Origin: Candidatus Iainarchaeum sp.
Lineage (GTDB): Archaea > Iainarchaeota > Iainarchaeia > Iainarchaeales > DTGL01
Assembly: GCA_026413945.1 (NCBI GenBank)
Contig: JAOAJX010000001.1
Coordinates: forward strand, 1-64,000
DNA: 64,000 nucleotides
Direction of reading: 5' to 3'
The notes beneath the pieces are model-generated. The model made no database searches. It had not been told where the DNA came from and worked only from the letters and a program-made list of their open reading frames with translations. Position numbers and translations under genes: made by a program. This document shows positions 46,195 to 53,332 of this stretch, piece by piece; within the stretch, counting starts at the first letter, position 1, and each line of letters opens with the position of its first letter.

Positions 46195-47961
46195 TTATAA
46201 GTAATAGTATTTGCCAGCTTTTTTTTGTTCACGGTCTTTTACAGAGTTGGGCTTATTTGCACGGGGCCTTAATGTTTGTGCGTCTCGCCTGAAAGTAACG
46301 CCAAAATTCTTGAGGAAAAGATTCATAGCTTCTTCTTTTGCTTTTGGCTCTAGCGCCAAGCCAAAACGGGCAGGTTCGCCTTCAAAAACTATAAATCTAT
46401 CACACAAGCAATCCTGAAAGAGCAAATCATGGTCAACCACAATGCAGGCTTTATTTTTCTTTTCAATAACTGACTTTATAAAGGCAGCAGCATTAAGGCG
46501 CTCTTCAACATCTAAGAAAGCGGATGGTTCGTCAAGTAGAAATAGATCTGCATCTTTGCACATAGCTGTTGCAACAAGAACTTTCTGTAATTCGCCGCCG
46601 CTTAGTTCAGTCATTTTGTTTTCATAAAGCTCTTTTAGGCTTAGCCTTTTTTCTGCTTCCGAGCTAAAAAGCTGCATATCTGTTACATTGCGCATTACAT
46701 ACTCTAGGACTGTTTCATCTTTCTCGGCCTTTATGTACTGTTGCTTATAAGAAAGCTTAAGTCCGGATGAAAAGACTCCGTTGTTGTGCTCAATGCTGCC
46801 AGCTATGACGTTAACGAAAGTTGTTTTGCCAATTGCGTTGGGCCCTAGAATGCCAACAACTTCACATTCCATTATTGAGCCGCCTTTTGCCTGAAGCTTA
46901 AATTTACTATATGATTTCTCAAATGATGGGTAATTAAAATATTCCTTGCACTTTTTCTCGAAAGCAGCTACTTTAGAAAAGCTTAGTTCTTTGTCGCGAA
47001 AAACAATATTCTCTGCCTTTAGGTGGCCTTCGAGGTACTGGTTTATGCCATTTAGCACACTCATCCTAGAACTTACAACGCCATAGGCACCTTTAACTCC
47101 AAAAAGAACGTGCACAAAGTCGCTAAGATAATCTAGAACTGCAAGATCATGCTCCACAACCAAAACATACTTTCCTTTTTCTGCAAGGCCTCTTATTGCT
47201 CTGGCCACGGCAAGTCTTTCCTTAACATCAAGATAGGATGCTGGCTCATCGAAGAAGTAAAAGTCAGCATCTTTAAGCATAGTTGCCGCAATTGAAACCA
47301 TTTGAAGTTCGCCGCCGCTGATTTCAGAGACTTTGCTTTGCAATATTTTTTTGAGATCGAAAACTGAAGTGATTTGTTTAAGATTATTTTTCTCATCAAA
47401 GTGTTTCAGCAAATCTTCAACTTTGCCATTAAAGGATTCCCGCACCTTATTTATGTCCTGCGGCTTAAAAGATGCCTTGATGCCTTCTTTAGAAAGTCTT
47501 TCGAAGTATGCTTGAAGCTCATTGCCTTTGAAAATTTCTATCAAAAAGTTATAACCTTGCTTTTCGTTATCTTCTGTTTTCGGAATAAGTTTTCCAGAGA
47601 GTACTTTCAAAGCGGTTGATTTACCTATGCCATTACTGCCAATAAGACCCACAACCGCGCCTTTTACAGGAATTGGTAAACCATATAGCTTAAATCTGTT
47701 CTTGCCATAACTATGAACTGGGACATCAACTTTTGCAGTAAGGTTTACAATTCTTATTGCATTGAAAGGGCATTTGTGCGTACAAATGCCACAGCCTGTG
47801 CAAAGCATCTCAGATATCTCGGCAGTTTTTCCTGGGATCGTAATGCACTGCTTACCTGAACGGTTTATAGGACAAACCTTGGCACACAGAGAGCCACATT
47901 TTTCAGGATAGCATTTTTTTTCATCTATAATGGCAATTCTTATACGACCTTCTTTGCTCAT
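46195..47961 (-). CDS. ABCE1/Rli1 ribosome-recycling ATPase
   Basis: This twin-ABC protein splits ribosomes after termination or stalling. The N-terminal ferredoxin-like domain has two 4Fe-4S sites (CYPEKCGSLCAKVCPINRSG and CTGCGICTHKCPFNA). Walker A motifs are GSNGIGKST and GPNAIGKTT, each followed by an SGGELQ signature and a D-E Walker B (FFDEPASYLD, LLDEPSAFLD). The start is the ATG at 47961 (MSKEGRIRIA). It is divergent from the Pelota gene, its functional partner, across about 98 bp. Confidence 0.97.
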   Translation of the reverse strand: MSKEGRIRIAIIDEKKCYPEKCGSLCAKVCPINRSGKQCITIPGKTAEISEMLCTGCGICTHKCPFNAIRIVNLTAKVDVPVHSYGKNRFKLYGLPIPVKGAVVGLIGSNGIGKSTALKVLSGKLIPKTEDNEKQGYNFLIEIFKGNELQAYFERLSKEGIKASFKPQDINKVRESFNGKVEDLLKHFDEKNNLKQITSVFDLKKILQSKVSEISGGELQMVSIAATMLKDADFYFFDEPASYLDVKERLAVARAIRGLAEKGKYVLVVEHDLAVLDYLSDFVHVLFGVKGAYGVVSSRMSVLNGINQYLEGHLKAENIVFRDKELSFSKVAAFEKKCKEYFNYPSFEKSYSKFKLQAKGGSIMECEVVGILGPNAIGKTTFVNVIAGSIEHNNGVFSSGLKLSYKQQYIKAEKDETVLEYVMRNVTDMQLFSSEAEKRLSLKELYENKMTELSGGELQKVLVATAMCKDADLFLLDEPSAFLDVEERLNAAAFIKSVIEKKNKACIVVDHDLLFQDCLCDRFIVFEGEPARFGLALEPKAKEEAMNLFLKNFGVTFRRDAQTLRPRANKPNSVKDREQKKAGKYYYL

Positions 47962-48059
47962 AACAGAACATTGCATCAAACTGTTAAAAATCTTATAGCA
48001 TATTTTGGAGAATTTGTTTTTAGTAATATTTTAAATAAGGTTTTAGATTAGCACTATTT

Positions 48060-49088
48060 ATGAGGATATTAAAGATTGATGAGAAGCATGGTATAATTTC
48101 AGTAATTCCCGAAAATGAGGATGATCTTTGGCATCTAAGCAAAGTGATTGAGCCGGGAGACAGGGTTATTGGGTTAACATCTAGGAAAGAGAAGGGAAAA
48201 GAAGGCACTTCTGCTATTAGAAGGGTTTTTCAAGCAGAAATTGAATCAGTTGACGTTTCTTTTGACAGCTTTTCCAAAGCACTTCGCATAAATGGAAAGA
48301 TTTGTGGTGGAAACCTTGATGTTTTGCCACTTGGCTCAATGCAAGTAATAGAAATTACTCCAAACGAAAAATACAAAATAATAAAAAAAGCAATTAGAAA
48401 GCATCACAGAGAGAGGATTGAAAGGGCTGCTAAAAGTCATAGGGAAGAAATAACAATTATAGTAATGGACGATGAAGATGCGACAATCTCATCTTTTAAG
48501 GATTTCAAATGTGATATAAAAGCAGAAATTCATTCTAACAAAGCTGGTAAGCGCTACACATCCGTGGATAGTATGAAAGAATATTTTGGAAATATATTGA
48601 AGAAAGTAACAGACATGGGAGCTAAGATAATAGTAATAGCTGGGCCGAGCTTTGTTAAGGACGATTTTGCCTCATTTCTACATGAGAGGGGTTTTTCTAA
48701 TAAAGTATATATTCAGGGCACGAGCACTACCGGCATAACAGGCACAAATGAGGTAATAAAAAGCAAGGCATTTGAAAATATAGCAAGAGACTCCCAGCTT
48801 GCTGAAGAAGCACGACTTATAGAGAAGCTGCTTGAGGAAGTCGCTAAGGGTAAGCTTGCTACTTATGGCTTTGAGCAAGTGAAGAGAGCATTAGAGCACG
48901 GGGCAGCGGAAAGAGTTTTTGTTCTAGATAAGCTTCTTGAAGAAAGGAAGAATGAAATATATGAGATGATGGAATTGGCTGAAAAAATAGGTGCAAGATT
49001 GCATATTTTTAACTCAGAATACGAGCCTGGAAAAAAGCTTGAGGGCTTGGGTGGCTTGGCAGCAATATTAAGATACTCAATTTCTTAA
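48060..49088 (+). CDS. pelA: Pelota/Dom34 mRNA surveillance protein
   Basis: The eRF1-like factor binds the empty A site of stalled ribosomes and works with ABCE1. The N-terminal Sm-like domain (MRILKIDEKHGIISVIPENEDDLWHLSKVIEPGD), the central domain (IIVIAGPSFVKDDFASFL) and the C-terminal domain (VKRALEHGAAERVFVLDKLL) are all present; as expected there is no GGQ. TTTAAATA lies 22 nt before the ATG, so the message is probably leaderless. It faces ABCE1. Confidence 0.96.
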   Translation: MRILKIDEKHGIISVIPENEDDLWHLSKVIEPGDRVIGLTSRKEKGKEGTSAIRRVFQAEIESVDVSFDSFSKALRINGKICGGNLDVLPLGSMQVIEITPNEKYKIIKKAIRKHHRERIERAAKSHREEITIIVMDDEDATISSFKDFKCDIKAEIHSNKAGKRYTSVDSMKEYFGNILKKVTDMGAKIIVIAGPSFVKDDFASFLHERGFSNKVYIQGTSTTGITGTNEVIKSKAFENIARDSQLAEEARLIEKLLEEVAKGKLATYGFEQVKRALEHGAAERVFVLDKLLEERKNEIYEMMELAEKIGARLHIFNSEYEPGKKLEGLGGLAAILRYSIS

Positions 49089-49095
49089 ATCTATT

Positions 49096-49455
49096 TTACT
49101 TTGCATTGACTTCGCACCACTCAATTTTTTTATCTTGAACGAGCTTTTTTATTTTTCTTTCTTTATCGCTAAGTTTTGAGTCTGCAAACTTAAACTCGCA
49201 AAAGTATATACGATCTTCGCAGAAGGCAATACCATCGATGGGGGACCCTAAAAACCTAAAGTTTGCTGGATCAAAAGGGAATTCCTTACTAAATGGTAGC
49301 CATTGCTCTGCTATTAAGCCATAACGTACACTCTGTGACCTTTTGTCATAGCTTAATTCTGCTAACTTTTCTTCCAGTTGCTCATTACGTATGTAGAGAA
49401 TGATTGCAATTAAAGAAACCAAAATTAGAAGAAAAATTATAATAAATTCAATCAT
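49096..49455 (-). CDS. Membrane-anchored PD-(D/E)XK nuclease, Holliday-resolvase-related
   Basis: One N-terminal transmembrane helix (FIIIFLLILVSLIAIILYI) precedes a small soluble domain. In it GSPIDGIAF and IYFCEFKF supply the D...ExK residues of a PD-(D/E)XK nuclease, and RYGLIAEQWLPF provides a preceding helix. This matches the archaeal family annotated as endonuclease related to Holliday junction resolvase. Membrane anchoring of a DNase-type fold is unusual. It is convergent with pelA (7 bp apart) and the last of three small minus-strand genes with a CARF-like and a winged-helix protein. Confidence 0.8.
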   Translation of the reverse strand: MIEFIIIFLLILVSLIAIILYIRNEQLEEKLAELSYDKRSQSVRYGLIAEQWLPFSKEFPFDPANFRFLGSPIDGIAFCEDRIYFCEFKFADSKLSDKERKIKKLVQDKKIEWCEVNAK

Positions 49456-49489
49456 AAATTAATTATTGCTGTTATTCTTAAAAAAATAA

Positions 49490-49837
49490 TCAGTATTCCT
49501 TAAGCCCATCTCTAGTTAGTACTACTATCTTAAAACTTTTACCTGCTTCCTTAATGGCTGAGAGAAGTGCAGAATGCTCTCTTCCAGTTCCAGAGATAAG
49601 GGATATGCAAAGCTCATCTTCCGGTAATCTGTCCTTTATTTGCTCTTTCAGTGACTCAAATCCGCTTCTCGGGTTTATGAGTATCCAATCGCATTGCTTT
49701 TGTGGTTTAAAATTTTCCTTTGCGAAATCGGTACCTATTAGAACAATTTTGTCCCAATCGCTCTCTTGTATTATGCGTCCGACATGACCCCAAGTACCTT
49801 TTCCCATACCAAGGGTTGCAACAAAAACTTTACCCAT
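49490..49837 (-). CDS. Small Rossmann protein resembling a CARF domain
   Basis: The 115-residue protein alternates strand and helix: KVFVATLGMGKGTWGHVGRI, then DKIVLIGTDF, later CISLISGTGREHSALLSAI and FKIVVLTRDGL. The first strand-loop with Gly and the later S-G-T-G-R-x-H-S-x-L motif correspond in position to the two ligand-binding motifs of CARF domains (Csa3/Csx1 type), which sense cyclic oligoadenylate. No effector domain is fused. The next gene upstream encodes a winged helix, the usual Csa3 partner domain. The CARF assignment is inferred from pattern, not searched. Confidence 0.5.
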   Translation of the reverse strand: MGKVFVATLGMGKGTWGHVGRIIQESDWDKIVLIGTDFAKENFKPQKQCDWILINPRSGFESLKEQIKDRLPEDELCISLISGTGREHSALLSAIKEAGKSFKIVVLTRDGLKEY

Positions 49838-49880
49838 AGTAAAAGGTTCGCATGCAAATTCTTTAAAAGGGTTGTGATGG

Positions 49881-50252
49881 CTAAACCTTTAGCTCTTTAA
49901 GGCCTCCACGAAGTATTGCTAACCTAGTTTTATCATAGAGTTCAATGAATCTTTTGCCGAGATCTGTAAGATAATAAAAATCCTTATTTGTTGCCTTAAA
50001 CCTGCTTACAAGCCCTATTTTCTCAAGAAGTGCCAAAATTTCGAGTAGATCTTCCCTTTCAATGTAGGGAAAAACAGAGCCAAGCATTATTAGGTCTTTT
50101 GCATTCTTTAAGTATCGCAGTATTTGTATGAAAAGAGTGGAATGCAATATTGGAAACAAAACAGGATATTTCTCAATAAAATGCATTAGCTCTCTATATG
50201 AGTTCTCAACCGAATCACTTTGAACACTGCTGGAATTAGCTTCATTTTGCAT
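49881..50252 (-). CDS. Winged-helix protein
   Basis: After about 20 polar residues the sequence shows a winged-helix pattern: MHFIEKYPVLFPILHSTLFIQILRYL, PYIEREDLLEILALLEKIGLVSRF, then wing strands KDFYYLTDLGKRFIELY. It resembles archaeal MarR/ArsR-like or Csa3-type wHTH domains. I use the ATG at 50252. It lies 43 bp upstream of the CARF-like gene on the same strand, after Elp3. It probably binds DNA and may work with the CARF-like protein as a split sensor-regulator. Confidence 0.65.
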   Translation of the reverse strand: MQNEANSSSVQSDSVENSYRELMHFIEKYPVLFPILHSTLFIQILRYLKNAKDLIMLGSVFPYIEREDLLEILALLEKIGLVSRFKATNKDFYYLTDLGKRFIELYDKTRLAILRGGLKELKV

Positions 50253-50273: not shown

Positions 50274-51863
50274 CTATAAAAGTCTTTTGTAAAGGTATGG
50301 GCCATTGTTTTTATAGCCGAATTTTTTTCGGTAGTACTCTTTAACTCCCAAGCCGGAAATAACAAAAATATTTTTTCTTTCAAAATCCTCTTTAGTTATA
50401 CGCTCTGCTTCCATCACTAGTTTTGTGCCAAGGCCTTGGTGCTGTATTTCGCCGCTTATTTTTTCACCCAAGAGCAGTGGCTCACCAAGTACGCGGAGTT
50501 CCCTTATTATCGATGCTTTATCGGCTATCTCACGCCTATAGGACCTTTCAGGAATTCTAAGGCGACAATATGCATAAAGCATTTCTCTTTTTTTATCTTC
50601 AAAAGAGAGAAAAATTTCATTGCCGTTGCTTGCATAATATTCATCCCTGAAAAGTTTGGTGGCCTCTAGCGAAAGCTCTTTTCCTTGAGAAAGTTGTTTT
50701 AACTTTGCCTCTCTGCATCGTATGCATCTGCAATATAATCCTTTTTTTGCCATTTCAGCTTGTACTATCTGCCTAAGATTGCTCTTCTTTACGCCAGCCT
50801 CTATTATTTGTGCCGGTATGTCACGCTGTACTCGCATTATCCTCACCCAGTATGGCACATATCTTTTCATCTTCACTATAAGCTTTGTAGCTTTTTCAGT
50901 GTCGAGAGGAAGGTATTCACCTTTTGCATACATTTTGCTGAGCTCAGTGCCTTTTATTACAAGGCATGGATAAAGTTTGATGTTGTCAGGCATGAATTCT
51001 TCACATGAAAAAAGCCTTTTGAAATTATAAAGATCGATTTTTGGCGTTGTATATGGCAGACCTGGCATAATGTGGTAGCACACTTTTAGTCCGGCGTCTT
51101 TGAGGATGTGAGTTGCGTTAGTTACATCTTTGACTGTGTGTCCCCTTTTTATTTTGGAATATATTTCATCATCAACAATCTGTACACCGAGTTCACATCT
51201 CGTTCCGCCAAAATTAAGCATCCTATTTACATGAACTTTTTTGCAATAATCTGGCCTCGTCTCAAAGGTTATTCCAATTATTCTGCGACTTGATTTCTCA
51301 GCCATTTTTTTTGCGTCTTCCAAGGATTTTGATTTTTTACCTATTACACCATCTATTGCACCCTTTACAAAAAGTTTCTGGTATTCTATGGGTGTAGAAA
51401 GAAAAGTACCGCCCATTATTATTAGCTCAATCTTTGACGCATTATGGCCAGTCTCTACAAGTTGCTTTATCCGATCTTCAACTTGTTTTTTTGGATCAAA
51501 TTTTGCCTGCAGCGCACGCATAGTTGCTGGCTCTCTCCCTGTATAGCTTTTTGGGGTTTCTTCAAAGATTTGGCTGCTAGGGCAATATATGCAATTACCT
51601 GGGCACTTATGTGGTCTTGCCATTATTGCTATCACATTTATTCCTGATGATGATCTGATTGGTTTTTTCGTAAGAATTGATGCAATTTTTTCGCTTTTAT
51701 TAGATTTATAACGCATTATTGTTGGATTTGTAGGTATTCTATCAAGACAGTATTTTTTCGCAAGTTCGATCTTTGCTTTATTAAGCTGTGCCTTGCTCTT
51801 CAAAGAGCCCTTCTCAATGAGCTCAATTATTTCTTTGCAATATTTCTCTTCGCTTTTGTTCAT
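50274..51863 (-). CDS. elp3: Elp3: tRNA U34 carboxymethyl synthase (radical SAM + acetyltransferase)
   Basis: The enzyme makes cm5U34 in tRNA from acetyl-CoA and SAM. The radical-SAM site is CPGNCIYCPSSQ, preceded by VIAMARPHKCPG; ITFETRPDYCKK and YHIMPGLPYTTP are typical. A zinc-binding CRCIRCREA segment links to the C-terminal GNAT domain (HQGLGTKLVMEAERITKED). The length of 529 aa is normal for archaea. Its ATG overlaps the stop of the secreted-protein gene by one base. Other Elongator subunits are absent, as usual in archaea. Confidence 0.96.
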   Translation of the reverse strand: MNKSEEKYCKEIIELIEKGSLKSKAQLNKAKIELAKKYCLDRIPTNPTIMRYKSNKSEKIASILTKKPIRSSSGINVIAIMARPHKCPGNCIYCPSSQIFEETPKSYTGREPATMRALQAKFDPKKQVEDRIKQLVETGHNASKIELIIMGGTFLSTPIEYQKLFVKGAIDGVIGKKSKSLEDAKKMAEKSSRRIIGITFETRPDYCKKVHVNRMLNFGGTRCELGVQIVDDEIYSKIKRGHTVKDVTNATHILKDAGLKVCYHIMPGLPYTTPKIDLYNFKRLFSCEEFMPDNIKLYPCLVIKGTELSKMYAKGEYLPLDTEKATKLIVKMKRYVPYWVRIMRVQRDIPAQIIEAGVKKSNLRQIVQAEMAKKGLYCRCIRCREAKLKQLSQGKELSLEATKLFRDEYYASNGNEIFLSFEDKKREMLYAYCRLRIPERSYRREIADKASIIRELRVLGEPLLLGEKISGEIQHQGLGTKLVMEAERITKEDFERKNIFVISGLGVKEYYRKKFGYKNNGPYLYKRLL

Positions 51864-52696: not shown

Positions 52697-53332
52697 TTGA
52701 GAATACTTGCGCTGAGTGATATACATCAGAGAGAAGAAAACCTGCTCTCCATTCTCAATGAAGTTCAAAAAATTAAATTAGACTTGGCAGTCATAGCTGG
52801 GGATTTGACAAATTATGGCAACGGCACTGATTCAGCCAAAATCATTGAAGCCATAAAAACGCCAAAAATATTTGCTGTTCCTGGAAACCTTGATGGAAAA
52901 GCAGTATTGGACTATCTTGAGGAAAGAAACATGTCACTGCACAATAGAAAAGCCCATTATAATGGCTTTGAATTCTGTGGGTTTGGAGGCGGCCTTTTAG
53001 GCAAAACCGGTGAATTGCTTTCATCAGAGCTTGAAATAGAAGAATGCTTGGGAAAAATAGTAACTAAGGGCAGCATACTTGTGACGCACCTGCCACCAAA
53101 AGATACGCCTCTGGATTTTACAGAGGATGAACACATAGGCAGCTCAGCAATCAAAAAAGTAATTTTAGAGAATAAGCCTTTCATGCATATATGCGGCCAC
53201 GCACATAATGCACACGGCAGAATCAAATTAGGAGAAACCATATGCATAAATGTTGCCTCGGTAAAGGATGGCTTCGCGAGCGTCATTGAAATAATGGGAA
53301 GAACAGTGCGCATCAAGAGGATATCAGTATGA
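52697..53332 (+). CDS. Calcineurin-like metallophosphoesterase (YfcE/MJ0936 type)
   Basis: All five blocks of the superfamily are visible: LSDIHQRE, VIAGDLTNYG, VPGNLDGK, LVTHLPPKD and CGHAHNAHG. At 211 aa it is a small phosphodiesterase-type enzyme, not Mre11, which is larger and has extra domains. The start is TTG with GGTGAT just before it. It overlaps the Taw3 gene by 4 bp. The substrate is unknown. Confidence 0.9.
   Translation: MRILALSDIHQREENLLSILNEVQKIKLDLAVIAGDLTNYGNGTDSAKIIEAIKTPKIFAVPGNLDGKAVLDYLEERNMSLHNRKAHYNGFEFCGFGGGLLGKTGELLSSELEIEECLGKIVTKGSILVTHLPPKDTPLDFTEDEHIGSSAIKKVILENKPFMHICGHAHNAHGRIKLGETICINVASVKDGFASVIEIMGRTVRIKRISV

Follow-up and report, generated by a model that had tools for sequence, protein, structure and literature searches.

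Organization of the locus

The subject of this analysis is a cluster of three small genes in a 64,000-nucleotide stretch of an archaeal genome (Candidatus Iainarchaeum sp., contig JAOAJX010000001.1; hereafter the window), the central one of which encodes a stand-alone protein with a predicted CARF fold. The genome holding the window is 0.95 Mb in size and 92% complete, and the nearest named homologues of the window are found in metagenome-assembled genomes (MAGs) of Candidatus Diapherotrites, to which the organism probably belongs. All three genes lie on the minus strand. The first encodes a winged helix-turn-helix (wHTH) protein of 123 residues, recognized from its predicted structure (49881–50252, with an ATG at 50252). 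It is followed, after 43 nucleotides, by the separate gene for the 115-residue CARF protein (49490–49837), identified through its predicted fold, Foldseek matches and distribution. The third encodes a PD-(D/E)XK nuclease of 119 residues (49096–49455), which comprises the C-terminal half of the Endonuc_Holl family (PF10107) after an N-terminal hydrophobic segment. The conserved upstream flank is the gene for an Elp3-type tRNA wobble-modification enzyme (50274–51863, minus strand), and the conserved convergent flank is that for the ribosome rescue factor Pelota (48060–49088, plus strand), after which comes an ABCE1-type ATPase (46195–47979). The order Elp3-wHTH-CARF-nuclease-(convergent)Pelota-ABCE1 is found repeatedly across Diapherotrites families, and this recurrence, together with the conservation of the proteins among relatives, indicates that the three open reading frames (ORFs) are real genes rather than chance frames. 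An ORF cluster antisense to the CARF gene (c19) was rejected as a shadow of the coding strand. The three genes had been proposed in an initial annotation, made from the sequence alone, and all of them were recovered along with the motifs that it had quoted. Below, G and L numbers designate the genomes and loci of relatives and C numbers contigs, with G000 being the window's own genome.

A TATA-like box at 49862–49869 (minus strand), about 31 nucleotides before the CARF start codon, points to a likely leaderless archaeal promoter. Comparable matches at −24 to −38 precede 22 of 41 CARF genes, against 6/41 and 4/41 at two control distances, and such an element stands at the leaderless distance in 9/18 wHTH genes, against 0/18 at control distances. 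This enrichment over the controls suggests that the CARF and wHTH genes possess their own promoters. Before the nuclease the element is seen in only 7 of 28 genes, and the nuclease might often be read through from the CARF gene.

A predicted CARF fold in the 115-residue protein

The AlphaFold2 model of the 115-residue protein, generated from an alignment with 19 relatives, has a predicted local distance difference test score (pLDDT) of 94.2 and a predicted template modelling score of 0.88. Its topology is β1-α1-β2-α2-β3-α3-β4-α4 followed by a β5/β6 hairpin, with strands at residues 3–8, 30–35, 50–53, 75–79, 102–108 and 111–114, and helices at 13–25, 37–42, 60–70 and 85–97. The CARF superfamily is characterized by a six-stranded Rossmann-like core in which strands 5 and 6 form a hairpin (PMC4012209; PMC8699464), and this defining trait is present in the model. 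In a Foldseek search against the PDB, ranks 1–38 were occupied by CARF chains throughout (E-values 2.2e-5 to 2.5e-3), those matched including Can2, Csa3, Csm6, Sso2081, Cam1, Cdn1 and Cad1, and the first non-CARF Rossmann domain appeared at rank 40. Hence, the best 38 structural matches point to CARF domains and not to a different Rossmann family, and we consider it highly probable that the modelled protein has a CARF fold. Searches with phmmer and hmmsearch against PDB sequences returned no match, comparisons by hhalign with the Csm6 and CARF-wHTH proteins of the same genome were not significant, and six family members gave weak matches to DAGK_cat (best E-value 7.9e-5). Such a divergent superfamily is not defined by sequence-profile similarity among its families, but as none to known CARF families was found, the claim is limited to the level of fold and motif: the assignment is one of predicted fold and motif position, not of sequence statistics.

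The invariant and near-invariant residues of the protein are mostly confined to two loops. Loop 1, after strand 1 and covering the start of helix 1 (49775–49816, minus strand), reads T8-L-G-x-G12-K13-G14-T15-W16-G17-H18-x-x-R21 in the window, with the family consensus GxGKGTWGHxxR. Loop 2, after strand 4 (49574–49594, minus strand), reads S82-G83-T84-G85-R86-E87-H88, with the consensus SGxG[KR]EH, and corresponds to the [ST]xxx[RK] signature. Among 56 non-redundant sequences, G12 and W16 of loop 1 are invariant, while K/R13, H18 and R21 are conserved in 98%, 93% and 91%, respectively; in loop 2, S82, G83, G85, E87 and H88 are invariant and position 86 is always K or R. By the topology of the model both loops would lie at the C-terminal edge of the neighbouring strands 1 and 4, which is the ligand site of CARF domains. 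The superfamily is marked by a basic residue (K/R) that is conserved behind strand 4 and commonly forms part of the motif [DN]x[ST]xxx[RK] (PMC4012209). In the present family both S82 and K/R86 occur in 100% of the sequences, and the [DN] position is one residue out of register, being N79 in most members and S79 in the window. A further trait of the superfamily is a polar residue (S/T) where strand 1 ends; the window protein has T8 there, other members have V, I or C at this position, and many sequences outside Diapherotrites have S10/T11. The predicted fold, the Foldseek matches and both ligand-loop motifs thus bear out the earlier suggestion that 49490–49837 encodes a stand-alone CARF protein.

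Phyletic distribution and genomic contexts

The CARF gene was detected in 33 of 53 Diapherotrites relatives, one copy in each, with a broader profile adding one weak match; the mean column identity of the protein within this group is 72%. An orthologue (AR10, in L008/L027) shares 58% identity with the window protein. It is also present in 189 of 279 sampled genomes of the Woesearchaeota/Nanoarchaeota phylum, nearly always as one match per genome. The phylum sampled here is that of the Woesearchaeota genome L093, its other members being labelled Nanoarchaeota or Nanoarchaeia. A further 18 carriers are found among 115 genomes of the phylum of L070, which comprises Thermococci-labelled and Methanofastidiosum MAGs. 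All full-length matches listed are single-domain ORFs of about 116–174 residues, and a fusion to an effector or wHTH domain was not found in any genome searched. No homologue was found in viral contigs, and fold matches in BFVD were weak and mixed; a viral origin was therefore rejected. Five carrier records with bacterial titles (L046, L053, L061, L063 and L084; Falkowbacteria, Chloroflexi, Firmicutes, Aminicenantes) have an archaeal CARF sequence and a Diapherotrites-like gene order, and are probably mislabelled MAG records.

Within the window's phylum, a Cas10 palm domain scores over the cut-off in only 3 of 55 genomes, namely the window's own, G007 (which has no CARF gene) and G056; of those among the 53 relatives that were searched, only G000 and G007 qualify. 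The corresponding count is 3/279 in the Nanoarchaeota phylum, where the sole long match (812 residues) comes from a CARF-negative genome and the two others are frames of 188–189 residues. As Cas10 is nearly absent from the CARF carriers, the family does not appear to be a CRISPR accessory, and its interpretation as a CRISPR effector or accessory was rejected. The best explanation of the overall pattern is an unannotated, archaeal, vertically inherited, normally single-copy and CRISPR-independent CARF family. The two small proteins of 188–189 residues with a Cas10-palm/GGDEF-like match (G297:C12:54617-54865 and G406:C17:110936-111166) might act as small nucleotide cyclases; both come from genomes that also carry the CARF gene.

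None of the neighbours compared is a constant partner of the CARF gene across phyla. In Woesearchaeota an Orc1/Cdc6-like AAA+ gene (c10) often comes after the CARF gene, which in some Woesearchaeota and Nanoarchaeia adjoins ZPR1 and diphthamide-synthesis genes. In Methanofastidiosum it has an aminotransferase gene on one side and a LarA-like gene on the other (names assigned by sequence inspection), with a small ArsR-type wHTH gene beyond, and in two Thermococci MAGs it is flanked by an upstream gene for an 84-residue wHTH protein and a downstream acylphosphatase-like gene. Conservation of the neighbourhood, a check proposed with the initial annotation, was observed across Diapherotrites families in the form of the repeated gene order, but it did not extend to other phyla, and even within Diapherotrites the nuclease and CARF genes have been lost separately.

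As a candidate ligand we considered cyclic di-AMP (c-di-AMP), the synthase of which (DAC, PF02457) is present in 68 of the 279 Woesearchaeota/Nanoarchaeota-phylum genomes. Of these, 60 are CARF-positive (p = 2e-5), an enrichment that is confounded by phylogeny and genome completeness. Since 129 of the 189 CARF genomes have no synthase, c-di-AMP was rejected as a general ligand.

Proposed mode of action

Given that the CARF protein carries no fused effector or output domain and that none is consistently co-inherited with it, the protein most likely works alone or in trans. Our preferred interpretation, which we hold to have an even chance of being correct, is that it is an ancient protein functioning independently of CRISPR, either as a ring-nuclease-like enzyme or as a housekeeping nucleotide sensor. 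Two subunits would pair via helix 4, as in Csa3, and the dimer would form a two-fold pocket for a nucleotide-like ligand. The protein might then be a small ring-nuclease-like enzyme that removes a cyclic or 2',3'-cyclic-phosphate nucleotide, an option suggested by the invariant His88, Glu87 and Lys/Arg86 and the 93% conserved His18, which exceed the needs of a passive sensor. Alternatively, it might be a housekeeping sensor acting in trans on host proteins, a mode for which the non-CRISPR CARF domain of RtcR offers a precedent (PMC9650030); in some Diapherotrites the neighbouring winged helix may be its transcriptional output. Crn1 ring nucleases degrade cyclic oligoadenylate. The window protein resembles the Crn1 enzymes Sso2081 and Sso1393 in its fold matches (8htw, 7ygh) and in the conserved basic and polar residues of its ligand loops, but its family differs from them in having no C-terminal extension, no tie to type III CRISPR and its own W16/E87/H88 signature.

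Several observations weigh against this interpretation. The template modelling scores of the Foldseek matches are moderate (0.49–0.72), and further Rossmann folds align too. Scans of the protein against Pfam, NCBIfam and PADLOC gave no match, and an hhalign comparison with 24 Thermococcales Csa3 sequences was not significant (E-value 0.045), with the β4 SGG motif in register. Strand 1 does not always end in S/T, position 8 varying among T, V, I and C, and the apparent invariance of the motifs is inflated, because part of the sample was gathered by patterns containing these motifs. Catalysis by the protein would be deduced from conservation alone, and partner genes located elsewhere in the genome would escape the comparison of neighbours.

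The CARF domain is best known for sensing the cyclic oligoadenylates that CRISPR systems produce. Here, the fold occurs as a small self-standing protein in roughly two thirds of the sampled Woesearchaeota/Nanoarchaeota-phylum and Diapherotrites genomes, in tiny-genome lineages that mostly have no enzyme for making such messengers. This hints either at a hitherto unrecognized nucleotide signal or damage product of DPANN archaea, or at an original role of the CARF fold outside immunity. A broader proposal, which we put forward tentatively and regard as rather doubtful, is that a near-core CARF protein independent of CRISPR is common to DPANN archaea and recognizes, and perhaps destroys, a housekeeping nucleotide signal new to archaea, with the CRISPR-associated CARF domains being a specialized branch of an older fold for nucleotide signalling. 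CARF families without CRISPR as such are not a new category, as DET1451, MA0186 and the RtcR-like families were already recorded (PMC4012209). No description of a stand-alone near-core DPANN family was found in the literature searched, which did not cover the main 2020 CARF classification, so that a prior description is possible. The protein is short, soluble-looking and easily expressed, which makes its ligand and activity directly testable.

Candidate partners and alternative functions

The AlphaFold2 model of the wHTH protein (pLDDT 90.0) shows a MarR/ArsR-like fold whose N- and C-terminal helices are long. Although no Pfam family matched it over the cut-off, its Foldseek matches in the PDB are the wHTH regulators NadR, YodB, SmtB and CzrA, confirming the winged helix of the initial annotation. 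That annotation had also raised the possibility of a transcription circuit built from the split CARF and wHTH parts, and this was evaluated through co-occurrence in whole genomes by Fisher tests, which are uncorrected for kinship and use counts by genome, some of them also collapsed to families. Strong wHTH matches are present in 20 of 33 CARF-positive but only 2 of 20 CARF-negative relatives, with p = 4e-4 by genome and 0.16 by family. The circuit is therefore weakly favoured by the former count and not by the latter, and the wHTH protein can be viewed as a possible, non-obligate partner of the CARF protein.

The alternative that fares best, though we judge it unlikely, is a split Csa3 in Diapherotrites, in which a ligand-binding CARF subunit controls the DNA binding of the adjacent wHTH protein at the locus or at other genes. 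The window protein matches Csa3 in fold (2wte, E-value 6.1e-5 by Foldseek) and shares with it a [ST]xxx[RK] loop behind strand 4, which reads SGGMR in Thermococcales Csa3 and SGSGK in the present family; the neighbouring product has a MarR/ArsR-like fold, the type that has been reported for the wHTH of Csa3 (PMC8699464). Moreover, in most CARF loci of Diapherotrites the wHTH gene lies directly upstream in the same orientation, it is retained with the CARF gene at loci that have lost the nuclease (G009, G017, G036 and G042), and a convergent member of the same wHTH family adjoins the CARF gene in the distant Diapherotrites locus L074. The unrelated 84-residue wHTH gene of the two Thermococci MAGs also lies directly upstream of the CARF gene; however, as the sole clear adjacent case in other phyla, and one from two related MAGs, it was judged too thin to serve as independent proof of a recurrent wHTH partner. 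Csa3 differs in fusing its CARF domain to a C-terminal wHTH, whereas here the two are separate genes, each with its own promoter-like element, and the window's CARF family has no significant profile match to Csa3 and no CRISPR link. The wHTH gene is missing from 13 of the 33 CARF genomes and is kept in two CARF-negative ones (G002 and G018), no related wHTH was seen to recur consistently beside the CARF gene in the Woesearchaeota/Nanoarchaeota phylum, and the protein evolves fast, with a mean identity of 34% as against 72% for the CARF protein within Diapherotrites.

A function in trans in which the CARF-fold protein, like RtcR, detects or processes RNA ends or products of translation stress appears distinctly less probable. 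It is suggested by the translation-quality genes next to the Diapherotrites locus (Elp3, Pelota, ABCE1) and by the diphthamide-synthesis and ZPR1 genes of some Woesearchaeota and Nanoarchaeia, and it has a precedent in the N-terminal CARF domain of RtcR, which operates outside CRISPR, is translation-linked and is regulated in trans by RtcAB and a translation-derived signal rather than by oligoadenylates (PMC9650030). Yet this context may be mere housekeeping backbone, because elsewhere the neighbours are Orc1/Cdc6 (Woesearchaeota) or an aminotransferase (Methanofastidiosum). The RtcR-type CARF domains are, in addition, fused to a sigma-54 activator and mostly without the K/R after strand 4 (PMC4012209), which the window family always has.

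The PD-(D/E)XK nuclease suggested by the initial annotation was verified: the protein matches PF10107 (E-value 3.4e-16) with 59.9 bits, exceeding the curated family cut-off of 23.8, and D74, E87 and K89 (E87-x-K89) are invariant in 30 relatives, leaving the catalytic residues intact. The resemblance to Endonuc_Holl (PF10107/COG4741) covers only profile positions 72–158 of 159. The predicted N-terminal transmembrane segment (49390–49452, minus strand; IEFIIIFLLILVSLIAIILYI) is hydrophobic in all 30 relatives aligned. The mean column identity is 55%, and phmmer and hmmsearch searches against PDB sequences gave no match. The regulation of this enzyme by a CARF-bound second messenger, the other circuit that had been envisaged, was not supported. 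The nuclease occurs in 28 of 33 CARF-positive and 16 of 20 CARF-negative relatives (whole-genome counts, p = 0.7), and either gene has been cleanly deleted in close relatives: the nuclease stands alone at the locus in G007, G015, G024, G030, G035, G041, G047 and G049, only the wHTH and nuclease genes remain in G002, a member of the same genus as the window, and the CARF gene has neither neighbour in G012 and in L028- and L029-type loci. These counts and deletions mark the nuclease as a separable, Diapherotrites-specific neighbour inherited independently of the CARF protein, and its role as an obligate partner was rejected. It is consequently very unlikely that the locus encodes a split Can2/Card1 in which the ligand-bound CARF protein activates the adjacent membrane nuclease, even though Can2, a CARF-PD-(D/E)XK fusion, is the best fold match (8q41, E-value 2.2e-5), the nuclease is adjacent and co-directional in about 27 of the 33 CARF-positive relatives, and it often lies too near the CARF gene for a promoter of its own. 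Unlike in Can2/Card1, the two parts are unfused and the nuclease is a predicted membrane-anchored PF10107 protein; the CARF gene has been cleanly lost and the nuclease kept in G002, G007, G015, G018, G024 and G047, and 28 of 30 CARF genomes outside Diapherotrites have no member of the nuclease family.

The observation that there is no CRISPR nearby is true locally, but another contig of the same genome (C16; L105, 616–10105) holds a type III-A CRISPR-Cas locus that looks complete, its genes being named by inspection of their sequences: Cas10 with a GGDD motif, Csm-type subunits, Csm6 with a CARF TGGTK motif, Cas6, Cas1 and a 37-nucleotide repeat. The contig also encodes a divergent, fused CARF-wHTH protein of 198 residues without a PDB sequence match. 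On account of this locus the cell probably makes cyclic oligoadenylate, and cross-talk of the CARF protein with the type III system is possible in this one organism. That the CARF protein is a type III accessory here, tuning the cyclic oligoadenylate made by Cas10, is nevertheless highly improbable, as one of the two Cas10-positive genomes among the relatives searched (G007) has no CARF gene and the family persists in 189 of 279 genomes of a phylum almost without Cas10.

Additional observations

The interval between Elp3 and Pelota (Diapherotrites loci L120–L142) is an insertion/deletion hotspot, in which the wHTH, CARF and nuclease genes have been gained and lost independently. The place of the nuclease after the CARF gene is taken in G009 and G042 by a large gene (>920 residues, extending past the end of the stretch compared). 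A metallophosphoesterase gene lies near the locus in the window (52697–53332). Members of the same similarity cluster (c6) also occur near the CARF gene in L068, a MAG labelled Methanomicrobia, and in Woesearchaeota, where they lie downstream of the Cdc6-like gene. Elsewhere in the window, positions 524–664 and 857–997 hold two copies of a 141-nucleotide direct repeat, 74% identical and 333 nucleotides apart.
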